From Deltaproteobacteria bacterium (GTDB lineage Bacteria; Bdellovibrionota_C; UBA2361; SZUA-149; JADLFC01), in contig JADLFC010000105.1 of the NCBI GenBank assembly GCA_020845775.1, forward strand, positions 1-35,440: a stretch of 35,440 nt of DNA. The letters are read 5' to 3'. A program made the translations under genes and the position numbers. Shown here piece after piece: positions 6,926 through 24,494 of this stretch (position 1 is its first letter; each line of letters opens with the position of its first letter). The notes under the pieces are model-generated. The model was not told the origin of the DNA. It saw only the letters and a program-made list of their open reading frames with translations, and did not search any database.

Positions 6926-6963
6926 CGCAATAATACCACTCTGTCTTGCAACAAGGAGAGGAT

Positions 6964-7353
6964 ATGCACATGAAGAAGCAAGCTTTTATTCGTTATTCAT
7001 CCACTACCACCGAACGCATAACTCGGGTTTACGAGGGCATGTATTGGCGGCCGCCAACGGACTTTTACGAAACGTGCGATGCCTTGATAGTTCGAGTTGA
7101 AGTTAGTGGCATTAGCGAAAGTGATTTTTCGATCTCTCTTGCGGGAACCACTCTTCGCATCGAGGGACTGAGACAAGAGTCATGTGAAAAACTTTGTTAT
7201 TTCCAAATGGAAATAGCGTATGGCGCGTTCTGTACTGAAATTAAGATTCCAGAGAATGTGCTTCTCGATTTCGAGCATTTAGAAACTGCTTACACTAATG
7301 GCTTCCTGTCGGTGCGTCTCCCAAAACTTCAACCCCAATTAAGCTCAATCTAA
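6964..7353 (+). CDS. Hsp20/alpha-crystallin small heat shock protein
   Basis: 129 residues from ATG 6964 (a second ATG at 6970 is equally possible), behind AAGGAGAGG. The alpha-crystallin domain covers most of the protein: LIVRVEVSGISESDFSISL, LRIEGLR, then the family's aromatic stretch EIAYGAFCTEIKIPENV and the ending NGFLSVRLPK. This corresponds to the usual EVPG and Y-G-x-F-x-R-x-I-x-L-P motifs in somewhat divergent form. Such proteins hold unfolding proteins in the cytoplasm. It sits 42 bases upstream of lon, a chaperone-protease pairing that implies a shared stress response. Confidence 0.9.
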   Translation: MHMKKQAFIRYSSTTTERITRVYEGMYWRPPTDFYETCDALIVRVEVSGISESDFSISLAGTTLRIEGLRQESCEKLCYFQMEIAYGAFCTEIKIPENVLLDFEHLETAYTNGFLSVRLPKLQPQLSSI

Positions 7354-9890: not shown

Positions 9891-9952
9891 TGCTAGAGTG
9901 AGGATTACGAAAAGTAGTAAAATGCTAACAATCTTCAAGCGGAGGAGTTTTT

Positions 9953-10249
9953 ATGATGAATAAGAAAGTATTGTTCACCGTTATATTTGCTGGAGCCATA
10001 GCTTTCCAACTAGGTTCAGGCGCAGGAAGCGCTAGTGCGGTTCCAGAAACGCCTGAAAAATGGGAAAAGTGCGCTGGCGTCTCAAAAGCAGGAAAGAACG
10101 ATTGCGGTTCTATAGACAAGAGTCACGATTGTGGTGGTTTGGCAAAGAAGGACAACGACCCTAACGAGTGGGTTTTCGTTCCAGAAGGAACATGTGAAAA
10201 ACTTGGCGGGAAAGTTGTTGAAGTAGTTCCAGCTAAAGCGAAGGAATAA
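9953..10249 (+). CDS. DUF2282 / BufA1-type cysteine peptide precursor (bufferin-like), orphan
   Basis: 98 residues starting MMNKK behind a strong GGAGGAG. Residues 1-29 are a Sec signal peptide ending ASA-VP. The mature part has four cysteines (40, 51, 60, 81) in the pattern EKCAGVSKAGKNDC, SHDCGGLAKKDNDPNEW and GTCEKLGG, which is the DUF2282 signature. Members are precursors of bufferins, metal-binding ribosomal peptides whose cysteines are modified by a DUF692 enzyme (BufB) with a DUF2063 partner (BufC). Neither partner is in this window, so modification is uncertain. A strong hairpin terminator follows directly. A role in copper or metal stress is inferred from family knowledge only. Confidence 0.85.
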   Translation: MMNKKVLFTVIFAGAIAFQLGSGAGSASAVPETPEKWEKCAGVSKAGKNDCGSIDKSHDCGGLAKKDNDPNEWVFVPEGTCEKLGGKVVEVVPAKAKE

Positions 10250-19492: not shown

Positions 19493-20377
19493 ATGAAAAT
19501 ACTTACGCCAACAAAATATGCGCTGCTTTCGTTCATACTTCTACTAACTAGCTGCAAGGAGACGATCCTTCACAACCTAGACGAGCGCGAAGCAAACAAA
19601 GTAACGCTTGCGCTTGCCCAGGTCGGAATTGAGGCTAATAAACGCGTATCGCCCACAGGATGGGAAGTGGAGGTCGATAGAGCTAAATCCACTACTGCGT
19701 TACAGACAATTGAGGAGCACCGCCTCTTTAAACCATTATCCGATACGCAAACGCGACATTCTCAAAGTCTAATGCCTAGCAGAGAGGAGCGTTCGCACTT
19801 TTTCGAGCGCCAGCTTGCATCAAATCTCGAATACACCCTAGAGCGCCTGCCAAATGTATTAGAGGCACACGTGCACTTGCAGATATCTTCTGCGCCTAGA
19901 TTCTCATTGGCATCGGGGCAACGCATTCAGTCTGCTAGCGTGCTCTTAATCTCTAAGACTGATAACGCTGTAGATATAGCCAAAGTTCAGAAACTGATTT
20001 CTGGAGCCACCGGTAGCGATGATAAGTCGGTCGTGGTTCTCGTCACAACAGCCGAATCATATACTGGGTCTGCCACTTCCTCGCTCGCTCTACCACAAAC
20101 TCCCCAAGCGGGCGGCATAAAAGCCATAGCGGACAATTATTACCTTCTAATCCTTGCTGCCCTACTCCTCGTCTCTGCGGTCGGCACCGTAGCTTTCTTT
20201 CATCTTAAGAAGACAAGACGCCTAGCCGCCAGAGAATCGACCAATGGCGCGAAATCACCTCTACTACGAGAGGAGGAATTCTTTAACAGCGAGACAGCAG
20301 CCGCAATGCTTCGCCCCTACTCGCCATCGTCCAATGGTCACAATACAAACAACAACATAACAACGGGAGGATTTTAA
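19493..20377 (+). CDS. sctJ: type III secretion inner-ring lipoprotein SctJ
   Basis: 294 residues with signal peptide, lipobox LLTSC (Cys21) and the SctJ core beginning HNLDEREANKVTLALAQVGIEA. A second YscJ-type ring motif follows (LERLPNVLEAHVHLQI), and a transmembrane helix at about 215-237 leads to a basic, cytoplasmic tail of about 55 residues rich in Asn and Ser. SctJ forms the periplasmic part of the inner-membrane ring of the injectisome. Flagellar FliF is longer and lacks the lipobox, so this is a non-flagellar T3SS gene. It is the first gene of the block after the sigma factor. Confidence 0.93.
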   Translation: MKILTPTKYALLSFILLLTSCKETILHNLDEREANKVTLALAQVGIEANKRVSPTGWEVEVDRAKSTTALQTIEEHRLFKPLSDTQTRHSQSLMPSREERSHFFERQLASNLEYTLERLPNVLEAHVHLQISSAPRFSLASGQRIQSASVLLISKTDNAVDIAKVQKLISGATGSDDKSVVVLVTTAESYTGSATSSLALPQTPQAGGIKAIADNYYLLILAALLLVSAVGTVAFFHLKKTRRLAARESTNGAKSPLLREEEFFNSETAAAMLRPYSPSSNGHNTNNNITTGGF

Positions 20378-20378
20378 A

Positions 20379-20603
20379 ATGATATGCAAAACACTACAGA
20401 TAAGTTGCTCAAAACGCTGCGAACTTCTAATGGCACTCTCATATGTCCTAGCTCCAAACAGCATTCTGCCAATCGCTTACAAACTGGCCCCAAATAAGGA
20501 TAACTCGGCCGTTACTATCGCGCGCGCATTGACCAAGTTGCCGCGCTCGGCAGCAACGCGCTTAGCCAAGGCAACAATAGCAGGTGAGGATTATTTAGCG
20601 TGA
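20379..20603 (+). CDS. small T3SS-block protein of unknown function, 74 aa
   Basis: ATG at 20379 has GGGAGG eight bases upstream, and its stop overlaps the next start (GTGA at 20600-20603). That points to translation in series. The protein is mildly basic and has a short hydrophobic helix (LLMALSYVLAPNSILPIAY). It occupies the place of a SctK-like gene in some T3SS loci, but it is much shorter than SctK and I see no clear similarity. No family recognised. Confidence 0.7.
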   Translation: MICKTLQISCSKRCELLMALSYVLAPNSILPIAYKLAPNKDNSAVTIARALTKLPRSAATRLAKATIAGEDYLA

Positions 20604-21340
20604 CACATAATATTCCTGACATTAAGTCTTTAGCACCCGCTACATCGCCAATAGAGTTGTTTGAGGTCCTCACTATAGAGAAAGCCCCTAGCAAACGCCT
20701 GTCGCCCAACAAGTCCCATAATCTATTGTGCACCACCCCAGTGCAGCGCGCCATTTCTTCATTCCTAAAAAAGATTCAGCGCAGCTTGGCTAGTGACATA
20801 AATATCCAGATAGCTTTATCAATCCATAGCAACTACGCAACGCACATTTTTAGATGTGGCGATTCCGTTTCCTCTGCTAGCTCCTTCCTCCTTGTGCGCC
20901 TAAGCCTTTTTCAGGAGCCACTACTGCTTGTTCTACCAATCCCCTTAGCCCATCATTTAGCAGCACTGCTATTAACAACTGCGCCGCATCTAGCAGAGAT
21001 TAACGACATTACGGCGGAGGCTGCAATGTGCTTTATATTGGCTAAGGTAATAGCCGAAAGCGACATTCTCCAACACCAGCACCTACTTATTGATTCGAGC
21101 GCAATAGCGCACGTTAACGATATTGAGAGCACATCTGAAAATCTTACGGAACATTTATTTCTGTCGATAAACGCCATAATTGACGGTTCCAAGCAATATA
21201 CCATCGATATTGGATTGCCACCTACTGTTATAGCTCGCATTGCCGCTGCTACATCTAGCAACTGCAAGCATGACGTTTATTTAGAACTTCTATCAAAACT
21301 ATTGGCCACTAACACTCTTTTTAAGGATAACGAGCAATGA
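20600..21340 (+). CDS. probable SctQ N-terminal-half protein (split SctQ)
   Basis: 246 residues starting at GTG 20600. Its leucine-rich middle (SSFLLVRLSLFQEPLLLVLPIPLAHHLAALLL, then LAEINDITAEAAMCFILAKVI) resembles the N-terminal part of SctQ/FliM-type sorting-platform proteins, though the similarity is weak. No SPOA domain is present. The next gene, joined by an ATGA overlap, supplies a SPOA domain. This arrangement looks like a two-gene SctQ, as known for HrcQA/HrcQB of Pseudomonas syringae. It would act at the cytoplasmic face of the injectisome. The assignment is positional plus pattern-based; SctK or SctL remain possible. Confidence 0.6.
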   Translation: MTHNIPDIKSLAPATSPIELFEVLTIEKAPSKRLSPNKSHNLLCTTPVQRAISSFLKKIQRSLASDINIQIALSIHSNYATHIFRCGDSVSSASSFLLVRLSLFQEPLLLVLPIPLAHHLAALLLTTAPHLAEINDITAEAAMCFILAKVIAESDILQHQHLLIDSSAIAHVNDIESTSENLTEHLFLSINAIIDGSKQYTIDIGLPPTVIARIAAATSSNCKHDVYLELLSKLLATNTLFKDNEQ

Positions 21341-21750
21341 CCGATACACTGACACCTATTACACCAATGCCTACGCCACGCCCTACTAGACACGAATGTT
21401 CCGAGGAAGCGCCTGCGACTACTTCCCAGCAGACACTAGAGCAGTCGGTGAGCGTTTCTATAACAGTTGGTGCCTGCGAGTTGTCTATTCAAGATTTAAT
21501 CTCGCTAAGTACCGGACAGTACCTGGGATTCCAATTTAATCCCCTTAAGCAGCTTACTCTCTCGATTCAGGACGAGCCAATTGCCACCGCTCGTCTCGTT
21601 TCCCTAGCAGACGGAGCACTTGCGCTCGAAATTCTTGGGACGACGACGACTATCTCAGCGAAAAGCGAAAGCATCGTTACAAACAATGACTTTTTGGTGA
21701 ACATTGACGCGAACTGCGGCGATAATATTGGCAGGTCAACTAACATTTAG
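21337..21750 (+). CDS. SPOA-domain protein, SctQ C-terminal half / FliN-like
   Basis: 137 residues. After a Pro/Thr-rich head (1-45) lies a SPOA (SctQ/FliN) domain: VSVSITVGACELSIQDLISLSTGQYLGF and then PIATARLVSLADGALALEIL. SPOA domains form dimers in the cytoplasmic sorting platform or C-ring. It is coupled to the preceding gene by an ATGA overlap (21337-21340). Flagellar FliN is an alternative name on domain grounds, but the surrounding genes are of injectisome type. Confidence 0.82.
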   Translation: MTDTLTPITPMPTPRPTRHECSEEAPATTSQQTLEQSVSVSITVGACELSIQDLISLSTGQYLGFQFNPLKQLTLSIQDEPIATARLVSLADGALALEILGTTTTISAKSESIVTNNDFLVNIDANCGDNIGRSTNI

Positions 21751-21799
21751 TTAGTAGGAATCATTAGTTATTAGACATTAACTTTGGAGAATTAGTTTT

Positions 21800-22108
21800 A
21801 TGAGCGATTTAAAATCAACTTTTTCGATCGGCGACCTTGCTGGCGCGGCTGCCTCAGTAGCCCGCTATTTGCCGCAACCAGCGAGCGCTGGTGTGGGACT
21901 GTTTAAAGACGTCATGACATCTGCGAAGCAGTTTGCATCAGATTTTATTGGTGGCGTTGAAAACGTCCCTACAGGCGACTTTGCCGAACTAATCGAGCTA
22001 CAAATCGAGGCTCAAATGGAAATGCAGACTACCACAATGGTCTCAAACATAGAGCGCTCAAAGCACGAATCGAAAATGGCAGCTATTCGCAATATTAGGG
22101 TAGGTTAG
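21800..22108 (+). CDS. T3SS inner-rod-like protein (SctI candidate)
   Basis: 102 residues with no signal peptide, GGAG at about ten bases before the ATG. The C-terminal half is amphipathic: FAELIELQIEAQMEMQTTTMVSNIERSKHESKMAAI resembles the conserved helix of SctI inner-rod subunits (LLxLQxxxQ, then a second short helix). Size, order just before the needle candidate, and lack of other domains support it. The N-terminal glycine/alanine-rich part is less typical. I am moderately sure. Confidence 0.6.
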   Translation: MSDLKSTFSIGDLAGAAASVARYLPQPASAGVGLFKDVMTSAKQFASDFIGGVENVPTGDFAELIELQIEAQMEMQTTTMVSNIERSKHESKMAAIRNIRVG

Positions 22109-22132
22109 TTAATTTATTTGAGGTAGAAAAAA

Positions 22133-22402
22133 ATGAGTGCAATAAGTTCAAGTTCAGCGAATTCGGGGAACATAAGCAAAGCAGACGCCGCGTGGCTAAA
22201 AAATGCTGAACGCGTAATGCTCGATTTGAATTCGTCTACAGAAGACATAATGAAAGTGGCAAACGCTACTGAAGGCAAGTATGGAAATACGACGGCTTTG
22301 GGGGACCTAGTGGCCAAGAGGGCAAACCTCGCAACTATGGTAAGCAATATCATTCGCGCCTTAGCCGACACTATGCAGAACATAATTCGAAACATTCGCT
22401 AG
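22133..22402 (+). CDS. T3SS needle subunit candidate (SctF-like)
   Basis: 89 residues, no signal peptide, GAGGT upstream of the ATG. The protein has a helix-turn-helix outline: a polar N-terminus, two predicted helices joined near KYGNTTALGDLV, and a C-terminal helix ATMVSNIIRALADTMQNIIRNIR. SctF needles such as PrgI and YscF are 80-90 residues and end in a similar helix finishing in II-x-N-F/I-R. It lies next to the inner-rod candidate and directly before sctV. Size, composition and position agree. Confidence 0.7.
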   Translation: MSAISSSSANSGNISKADAAWLKNAERVMLDLNSSTEDIMKVANATEGKYGNTTALGDLVAKRANLATMVSNIIRALADTMQNIIRNIR

Positions 22403-22421
22403 TAGAGGATCGCTTCAATTT

Positions 22422-24494
22422 ATGGCCACTCTTACAACTAAAGCTGAAACAAGGGATTTACTCCTACCATTAGCAGTTGTCGCGGTTGTTGGGTTGATGA
22501 TATTGCCCTTGCCAGCCTTTCTTCTCGATACCTTGCTAATGTGCAACATTGCTTTTGCGCTATGTCTGCTCATTAGCTCGGTATACCTATCCGAGTCGGA
22601 GGAGTTTTCGTCGCTCCCTATGATGTTGCTTCTAGCTACTCTGTTTCGGCTAGGTCTAAACATTTCGACGACTCGACAGCTCCTTAGTAGCGGAGAGCCG
22701 CCCGAGATCGTTGCGGCCTTTGGCAACTTTGTCGTGGGTGGCAATTTGGCAGTGGGAGTGGTTATTTTCTCAATTATTACCGTCGTTCAGTTCCTGGTCA
22801 TTTCTAAGGGCGCTGAGCGCATTGCCGAAGTTGCAGCGCGGTTTACGCTCGATGCCATGCCGGGAAAGCAAATGGCCATCGACGCGGACGTGCGCGCGGG
22901 AATTATCGGACTAGGAGAAGCTAAGGAGAAGCGCAAGGCGCTCCATAGGGAGTCAAAGCTGTTTGGCGCTCTTGATGGCGCGATGAAGTTTGTTAAGGGA
23001 GATGCCATCGCCGGCCTGCTAATAACAATCATTAATATTACAGCTGGCGTCGTAGTTGGGGTTACCCAGCAGGGTTTAGACTTAGGAACGGCTTTTCGCA
23101 AATTTACGCTATTTACCGTGGGCGATGGTTTAGTATCCCAGGTGCCGGCCTTGCTGGTGGCGGTAGCGGCTGGAATCGTAGTCACCCGGGTGGAGAACAA
23201 AGACCGCGGTTTTATCGGCCGTGAGATGTTTGCACAACTGGGCAGAGAGCCGCAGGCGTTGGGGACTTGCGCTGGCGTGATGTTGATTCTTGCGTTCGTA
23301 CCGGGCATGCCTACAGTGCCATTTTTGGGAGCGTCGATTTTATTTTTTCTTATTGCAAAAAAGGGAGTGCTGGAGCGCGCACAGGCGGCTAAGGAAGATG
23401 TCGATTCTACCTTTCAACCAAAGATCTTTTCGCCGCTGGTCCTTAGACTTAGCCTCGATGCGGCTCGCGTGTTGCAGCAGGAGGCGCACTTGCCACAGCT
23501 GATTAAGCAACTGAGATCAAAGACATTCGATACGCGAGGCGTGACCATTAGTGCGGTTGAGTTTGACATCGACGACTCACTGGTTGACATACAGGCAAGC
23601 ATTTTCGTTCACGGAGTCGCCATGGAAAAGATCTCTTTCGCAAACGAAGGCAACTCAGGCGGCGATAAGGCTAATGGTTCAGCATCTATGAATGGCTTTA
23701 GTGCTAGAATTGCAGATTCATTGGGCCGCCTAGTGGAGAAAAACTTACTAGAGTTCATCGATGATACGCACACTAGAATATTGTTGGAGGCTCACCAGGC
23801 GACAGCTGAAGATTTGATTAATAGCGTCGTGCCTAAACTCATTAGCATTACTGGCTTAACGACACTTTTTAGGCAGCTATTACTAGAAAACGTAAGCATA
23901 AGAGATATGCGCCGAATCTTGCAGGCAATAAGCGAGTATAATCTAAACCAAAAGGCTTCTGCAACGAATCAGCCGTCGTCATCGCCACAAATGCAGCTTT
24001 CTGCATCGCTTAGTCAAAACAGTCGATTTCCACATGAAATGTGTGCCCTGTTGGCCCACGTCCGGGAGGCATTAGGTCGGACGATTTCTGCCGATATTAC
24101 ACACGGAAGCTCAACGCTTGAAGCCTTTGTATTGTCACCAGAACTCGACTACTTGTTTGCCAAGCTCAGCATTCTCAACTTGCCTCCTGAGCCGGATTTT
24201 GCTGACAGGATTACCTCAATTATTAGAGGCCTTAGAGAAAGAGATCCGGAGCTATTCGTCGTTCTCACCTCTCGCTCGGCCAGACTGCCGTTTTCTCAGC
24301 TCATGGCAGGCTACATGCCAGATATGCGCGTAATATCCGTGAGTGAGCTGTCAGCAGATATTAAACTTACGCATCCCATTTACGTTGAAGTTGAAGGCTT
24401 AAGCTTAAACGGCAAAGCCCCTAGTGAGTTTTCGGAAACTACCAACATGCCAAATGCCGCAGCTTTCTCAATGCCCTCTATGGAGACCCATTAA
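22422..24494 (+). CDS. sctV: T3SS export-gate protein SctV (FlhA/LcrD family)
   Basis: 690 residues, the normal length. The N-terminal half holds about eight membrane helices (first at 12-35) and the family signatures LFRLGLNISTTR (75-85), GNFVVGGNLAVGVVIF and RFTLDAMPGKQMAIDADVRAG (140-160), then TVGDGLVSQVPALLVAVAAGI. Residues about 330-690 are the cytoplasmic domain that forms the nonameric ring. The protein drives export-substrate docking in the inner membrane. The family includes flagellar FlhA, but SctJ, the rod and needle candidates next to it make SctV the better name. A linker rich in Ser/Gln/Asn (about 520-540) interrupts the cytoplasmic domain. Confidence 0.95.
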   Translation: MATLTTKAETRDLLLPLAVVAVVGLMILPLPAFLLDTLLMCNIAFALCLLISSVYLSESEEFSSLPMMLLLATLFRLGLNISTTRQLLSSGEPPEIVAAFGNFVVGGNLAVGVVIFSIITVVQFLVISKGAERIAEVAARFTLDAMPGKQMAIDADVRAGIIGLGEAKEKRKALHRESKLFGALDGAMKFVKGDAIAGLLITIINITAGVVVGVTQQGLDLGTAFRKFTLFTVGDGLVSQVPALLVAVAAGIVVTRVENKDRGFIGREMFAQLGREPQALGTCAGVMLILAFVPGMPTVPFLGASILFFLIAKKGVLERAQAAKEDVDSTFQPKIFSPLVLRLSLDAARVLQQEAHLPQLIKQLRSKTFDTRGVTISAVEFDIDDSLVDIQASIFVHGVAMEKISFANEGNSGGDKANGSASMNGFSARIADSLGRLVEKNLLEFIDDTHTRILLEAHQATAEDLINSVVPKLISITGLTTLFRQLLLENVSIRDMRRILQAISEYNLNQKASATNQPSSSPQMQLSASLSQNSRFPHEMCALLAHVREALGRTISADITHGSSTLEAFVLSPELDYLFAKLSILNLPPEPDFADRITSIIRGLRERDPELFVVLTSRSARLPFSQLMAGYMPDMRVISVSELSADIKLTHPIYVEVEGLSLNGKAPSEFSETTNMPNAAAFSMPSMETH

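Follow-up and report, generated by a model that had tools for sequence, protein, structure and literature searches.

A DUF2282 (Buf1-type) gene of the copper-buffering bufferin family within the 35,440-nucleotide stretch analyzed here (the window) is an orphan not merely locally but genome-wide: its genome yielded neither of the bufferin-modifying proteins BufB (MNIO) and BufC (DUF2063). The same genome encodes a PF13618 protein and a GMC flavoprotein belonging to a distinct subfamily that neighbors DUF2282 in other MNIO-free genomes. The combination of an MNIO-free DUF2282 gene with a candidate flavin-type pair hints at an undescribed, MNIO-independent version of the bufferin system. DUF2282 genomes without MNIO have been reported already; what is new is their recurrent adjacency to, or co-occurrence with, this PF13618-GMC subfamily. 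Bufferins have so far been treated as MNIO products, and a recurrent MNIO-free context makes it possible to test directly if DUF2282 peptides function without modification or undergo processing by enzymes of a different class. An MNIO-independent system would explain the rare genomes that hold a precursor but no MNIO, and the PF13618-GMC pair could serve as a marker for finding further such systems.

The orphan gene, its product and its neighbors

The initial annotation, made from the sequence, had placed the product in DUF2282. The PF10048 profile agrees, with 74.6 bits (E 6.2e-21) against a curated Pfam cut-off of 22.4, a match far beyond chance, while the NCBIfam models gave zero matches to the protein. 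The four-cysteine pattern noted there was also confirmed: C40, C51, C60, and C81, spaced C-x10-C-x8-C-x20-C, are all invariant across 54 aligned members of the family. The last residue of the putative leader, A29, is invariant across 52 sequences, and the mature part contains the family motif WEKCAG...GKNDCG. In the published Buf1 scheme, modification affects the central two cysteines, while a disulphide links the outer two (PMC12452194). An AlphaFold2 model built from 52 sequences is confident over approximately residues 40-90; Foldseek gave zero matches of this model to the PDB at E<=0.001, as did a PDB sequence search with the protein. A phage or mobile origin of the gene was set aside, as a scan of viral contigs found no relative. 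A plasmid search returned 89 DUF2282 records with the window protein as query and 83 with a Sedimenticola-type protein.

Table 1 Features of the window and of the PF13618-GMC locus of the same genome (contig C122).
Feature	Position	Strand	Basis and details
hsp20-type small heat-shock gene	6946..7353	+	PF00011, 43.3 bits; 41 bp ahead of lon
lon, second copy in the genome	7395..9890	+	Pfam Lon domains; 62 bp upstream of the DUF2282 gene
RBS-like GGAGGAG	9941..9947	+	read from sequence; 5 bases ahead of the start codon
DUF2282 (Buf1-type) gene, 98 aa, sole copy in the genome	9953..10249	+	PF10048 profile match
Sec-like leader, residues 1-29, ending ASA	9953..10039	+	translation judged by eye; cleavage ASA/VP
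Four-Cys span of the DUF2282 protein	10070..10195	+	C40 10070-10072, C51 10103-10105, C60 10130-10132, C81 10193-10195
Perfect 13-bp inverted repeat with 20-base loop, between convergent DUF2282 and waaA	10257..10302	.	sequence; absent from terminator-scan output
PF13618 gene, Tat-type MFSRRDFF leader	G000:C122 1993-2553		44.7 bits
GMC gene, overlapping the PF13618 gene	G000:C122 2550-4235		PF05199 63.4 bits, PF00732 57.4 bits; A3 profile 913 bits

The genome assembly comprises 2.57 Mb in 189 contigs (95.77% complete, 0.17% contaminated), so that about 4% is estimated to be missing. Within it, PF10048 matches only the gene at 9953-10249, PF05114 (MNIO/DUF692, BufB) has no match at E<=10, and PF09836 (DUF2063, BufC) has none over its cut-off of 27.2, the best reaching 13.2 bits (E 0.23). 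A profile made from two BufB proteins of the same order gave zero matches in this genome. As a control, PF05114 was also searched in 14 named genomes, and 2 of them, including that of Caulobacter vibrioides, gave a match at its cut-off. The lack of bufB and bufC beside the gene, pointed out in the initial annotation, is thus matched by the whole assembly: the adjacent genes encode Lon protease and a Kdo transferase (Pfam), DUF692 and DUF2063 were not found elsewhere, and there is no other DUF2282 gene with which a bufB/bufC pair could be associated. Modification in trans by MNIO and DUF2063, raised there as one option, is unsupported because neither was found in the assembly.

PF10048 matches are uncommon in the class, occurring in 4 of 45 genomes: the window genome, G004, G011, and G019. 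Two of these (G004 and G011, from one family of the same order as the window genome) have contiguous DUF2282, MNIO, and DUF2063 genes. G019 comes from another family of the class, is 95% complete, and has a DUF2282 orphan with a dinB gene (by eye) behind it and with neither PF05114 nor PF09836 in the genome. In a tree of 86 DUF2282 proteins, built on few columns and with many open forks, the window and G019 orphans pair with support of 85/78, below the strict mark, and group weakly near MNIO-linked Ferrimonas proteins; the G004 and G011 proteins fall elsewhere. DUF2282 was present in 53 of 146 genomes drawn around a Sedimenticola MAG, and 7 of the 53 had no PF05114; the genome at the centre of the draw is included, as are MAGs whose completeness is not stated. 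According to PMC12452194, DUF2282 genomes lacking MNIO are rare (21 of 4072 fully assembled genomes with DUF2282), and sizeable proportions of both Buf1 and Buf2 genes do not adjoin MNIO genes. At one locus (L036, 5944-7147), a DUF2063-like gene directly follows DUF2282 with no MNIO between, and the two MNIO genes of that genome lie elsewhere.

The position of the gene next to stress genes, also noted initially, holds in a sharper form, the neighbor being a second lon paralogue (the other copy is on contig C148) that itself stands behind an hsp20 gene. The hsp20, lon, and DUF2282 genes lie on the same strand, separated by 41 and 62 bp, and the Kdo transferase gene (waaA; Pfam) is convergent on the far side. 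Promoter and terminator scans gave 4 promoter-like and 2 terminator-like signals versus 4.9 and 3.9 expected from shuffled sequences; with both at or below the shuffled counts, we infer an hsp20-lon-DUF2282 operon from strand and gaps alone. The inverted repeat that follows is possibly a two-way terminator. The window lon has best full-length matches in the same order that are merely 44-48% identical, and the lon genes of other same-order genomes sit behind clpX-type or different genes (by eye). A lon-DUF2282 linkage was not seen at other loci: tblastn found no strong lon match in the other DUF2282 loci compared, the only match being a weak one of 90 residues at L036, and elsewhere in the order DUF2282 and the lon matches of a genome are on different contigs. 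Farther along the window (19493-24494), genes resembling those of a T3SS or of flagellar export were seen by eye, among them those for an SctJ/FliF-like lipoprotein and an FlhA/SctV-like protein.

A PF13618-GMC pair in MNIO-free DUF2282 genomes

Among 80 DUF2282 loci of named genomes, 66 had an MNIO gene in the fetched stretch and 14 did not (70 of 87 with MNIO when 7 further loci are counted). Six of those 14 genomes are without any PF05114 (G057, G058, G064, G065, G066, and G069); G058 (L034) was excluded from the MNIO-free set as an assembly split, because its DUF2282 gene is at a contig end and a DUF2063 gene over the cut-off starts another contig. In each of the remaining five, a PF13618 protein and a GMC flavoprotein are encoded beside DUF2282, together with DoxX in four (the Sedimenticola/Chromatiaceae group). 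A set of 112 loci was counted after removal of L002, L006, L007, L039, and L140, which were duplicates or did not represent DUF2282 loci. GMC or PF13618 genes neighbor DUF2282 in 7 of the 23 MNIO-free loci of this set versus 0 of the 89 with MNIO (Fisher p 7e-6, related loci each being counted); most of the loci L111-L139 have flanks of about 1.5 kb, so that absence of MNIO or GMC there is no proof.

A profile made from four DUF2282-neighboring GMC proteins (A3) was then searched in 30 genomes, all of them DUF2282 carriers. It matched in 12 of 13 MNIO-free genomes versus 4 of 17 MNIO-positive ones (Fisher p 2e-4), and since every genome of this set carries DUF2282, the co-occurrence could in part reflect common descent or lifestyle. 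The MNIO-free carriers are the window genome (G000), G019, G057, G064, G065, G066, and G069, together with G131, G132, G165, G178, and G187, these last five and G193 having been classed by PF05114 alone. The sole MNIO-free exception is G193, whose DUF2282 match is partial and weak (34.6 bits), and the MNIO-positive carriers are G070, G077, G101, and G114. The MNIO-free side comprises 13 of the 14 such DUF2282 genomes known by then; the 17 MNIO-positive genomes are 13 of the 46 DUF2282 genomes with a PF05114 match in the Sedimenticola-centred draw plus G004, G011, G063, and G070. G063 and G070 had been picked because their DUF2282 gene lies apart from MNIO, and without them the comparison is 12/13 versus 3/15. 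Removing the discovery genomes leaves 6/7 versus 3/16 (p 0.005), and collapsing the MNIO-free lineages gives 5/5 versus 4/17 (p 0.005), with ancestry incompletely corrected.

In eight MNIO-free genomes (G057, G064, G065, G066, G069, G131, G165, and G178) and in two with MNIO elsewhere (G070 and G101), no more than about 3.2 kb separates the pair, or its GMC member, from DUF2282, or both are in the same short locus. In the window genome, G019, G132, and G187, the pair is on a contig other than that of DUF2282; the G019 pair, on contig C99, is cut by the contig end. The DUF2282 gene of G132 (L172, 4033-6343, contig C106) forms a pair with DoxX, without MNIO and with the GMC gene on a different contig, and this DUF2282-DoxX pair is divergent from genes for a sigma-70-type factor and a possible anti-sigma protein (by eye). 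The presence in the window genome of a pair from this subfamily (Table 1) had not been foreseen in the initial annotation.

Properties of the GMC protein and a plasmid-borne relative

The closest solved relatives of the GMC protein are FAD glucose and fructose dehydrogenases (6a2u, E 6e-57; 7w2j, 3e-50). When the A3 alignment is compared with 6a2u, Leu and Pro occupy the positions of the glucose dehydrogenase His (in NNHITG) and Asn (in GTVNVT), which we take to be its catalytic pair; the motifs are the same in the window genome. Three cysteines of the GMC protein align with a cysteine-rich stretch of glucose dehydrogenase, presumably its Fe-S cluster site. FAD dehydrogenases of this type work together with a three-haem subunit and with a small subunit that serves as a Tat hitch-hiker (PMC9727119). 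On contig C122 of the window genome, there was no CxxCH frame for a multihaem c-type subunit, and the CxxCH frames in the other 15 fetched regions were antisense or overlapping only, with no c-type cytochrome gene. The Leu/Pro replacements and the lack of a neighboring c-type cytochrome make it doubtful that the protein is a plain sugar dehydrogenase. A structure predicted for the GMC protein from 4 sequences was discarded (pLDDT 36).

Among 72,556 plasmid records, one GMC match was found at E<=1e-60, on the Sulfurospirillum plasmid pSulSP (50% identity). With the pSulSP protein as query, all 95 other records were below 60% identity, the best among the matches listed being at about 31%, and this low identity marks the GMC subfamily as distinct. 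On the plasmid (L175, 7180-9656), the PF13618-GMC pair is divergent from a gene whose 73-aa product has a secretion-type leader and contains the motifs GKCGG, AKCGG, and AKCGA. Beyond this peptide gene come a two-component system, msrP, and a ferric-reductase-like gene. The annotation of pSulSP 105000-200667 includes no MNIO. The peptide scores below the cut-offs of the HvfA models and hence shows a resemblance to, rather than membership of, the EGKCG group, another class of thiooxazole precursors. Some EGKCG clusters carry oxidored_molybd and ferric reductase genes (PMC12452194), and the pSulSP locus may possibly be an EGKCG-type cluster without MNIO.

Possible roles and relation to known systems

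Our leading, though tentative, reading is that the window gene encodes a genuine, selected Buf1-fold protein, a Sec-exported, thiol-rich buffer made under stress without BufB and BufC, with the C122 pair as its most likely partner. The protein would be synthesized under protein stress as the product of the third gene of the hsp20-lon-DUF2282 run, exported through Sec to the periplasm, and there buffer a metal (copper-type) or an oxidant via its cysteines, BufB and BufC being dispensable for this work. The Tat-exported PF13618 subunit and the GMC protein would act on or with the peptide, by maturing it, by holding its thiols in a given state, or in another step.

Alternatively, the DUF2282 protein could act unmodified and alone, as a periplasmic metal buffer that has four thiols, can form disulphides, and requires no enzyme, the job of the GMC pair being unrelated. 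The negative search for modifying enzymes and the separation of the GMC pair from DUF2282 in the window genome are in line with this, and PMC12452194 proposes unmodified activity for the rare MNIO-free genomes. Nevertheless, GMC genes in 12 of 13 MNIO-free genomes, 8 of them with adjacency, argue against it, and we regard it as possible but rather unlikely. Still more speculative is a stronger form of partnership, in which metal-binding peptides that rely on cysteines would be served by a second machinery independent of MNIO, namely the Tat-exported pair: once DUF2282 (and KCG) peptides have been exported, a flavin/Fe-S protein whose active site has been rebuilt would oxidize their cysteines, replacing the cytoplasmic BufB/BufC.

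It is improbable that a BufB/BufC pair is present in the organism, missing from the draft assembly, and modifies the peptide in trans. The incompleteness and the 189 contigs of the assembly leave room for such a gap, and two genomes of the same order have full bufABC sets; however, the G019 genome also lacks both genes at 95% completeness, the chance of a joint miss being estimated at about 0.2% if gaps are random and independent, and the DUF2282 locus is unbroken, further genes flanking it on either side.

Purifying selection bears on the last reading. The window and G019 proteins share 60 of 92 aligned residues, with different codons at 33 of those 60, and their genes give dN 0.31 and dS 2.7 (NG86, dS saturated), so that the window gene looks selected rather than decayed. 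A relic of a lost bufferin cluster with its function or expression gone, an option that PMC12452194 raises for such uncommon orphans ("no longer expressed or functional"), is therefore the least probable reading, given a dN far below dS, a good ribosome-binding site, and an intact putative leader and cysteines.

In the literature covered, which was mostly without subscription papers, supplements, and the founding bufferin paper, we found no work pairing DUF2282 with GMC, none joining MNIO with a GMC family oxidoreductase or bufferin with GMC and RiPP, and none linking GMC oxidoreductase, gluconate 2-dehydrogenase subunit 3, and copper; the main text of neither PMC12452194 nor PMC12668002 contains "GMC".

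The window protein shares with the Buf1 bufferins, encoded by bufABC with DoxX (PMC12452194), its family HMM, four cysteines, and size, and by eye it seems to have a leader as well, but its genome is without MNIO and DUF2063, contains a PF13618-GMC pair, and has the gene behind hsp20 and lon. The pair resembles the FAD glucose/fructose dehydrogenase complexes (6a2u and 7w2j; PMC9727119) in its GMC catalytic-type protein and its PF13618 small subunit with a Tat leader, and differs from them in the Leu/Pro replacements, in the lack of a cytochrome gene in the fetched clusters, and in its association with cysteine peptides. The pSulSP locus is similar to the EGKCG/oxazolin (HvfA-type) clusters (PMC12452194) in its KCG motifs and in the nearby msrP and ferric-reductase-like genes, whereas it has the PF13618-GMC pair and, within 105000-200667, no annotated MNIO. 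In Tepidiphilus (L084, 6001-9462), DUF2282, PF13618, GMC, and DoxX genes stand in a row on one strand, MNIO genes being elsewhere in the genome: compared with the published bufferin core, the positions of MNIO and DUF2063 are taken by PF13618 and GMC.
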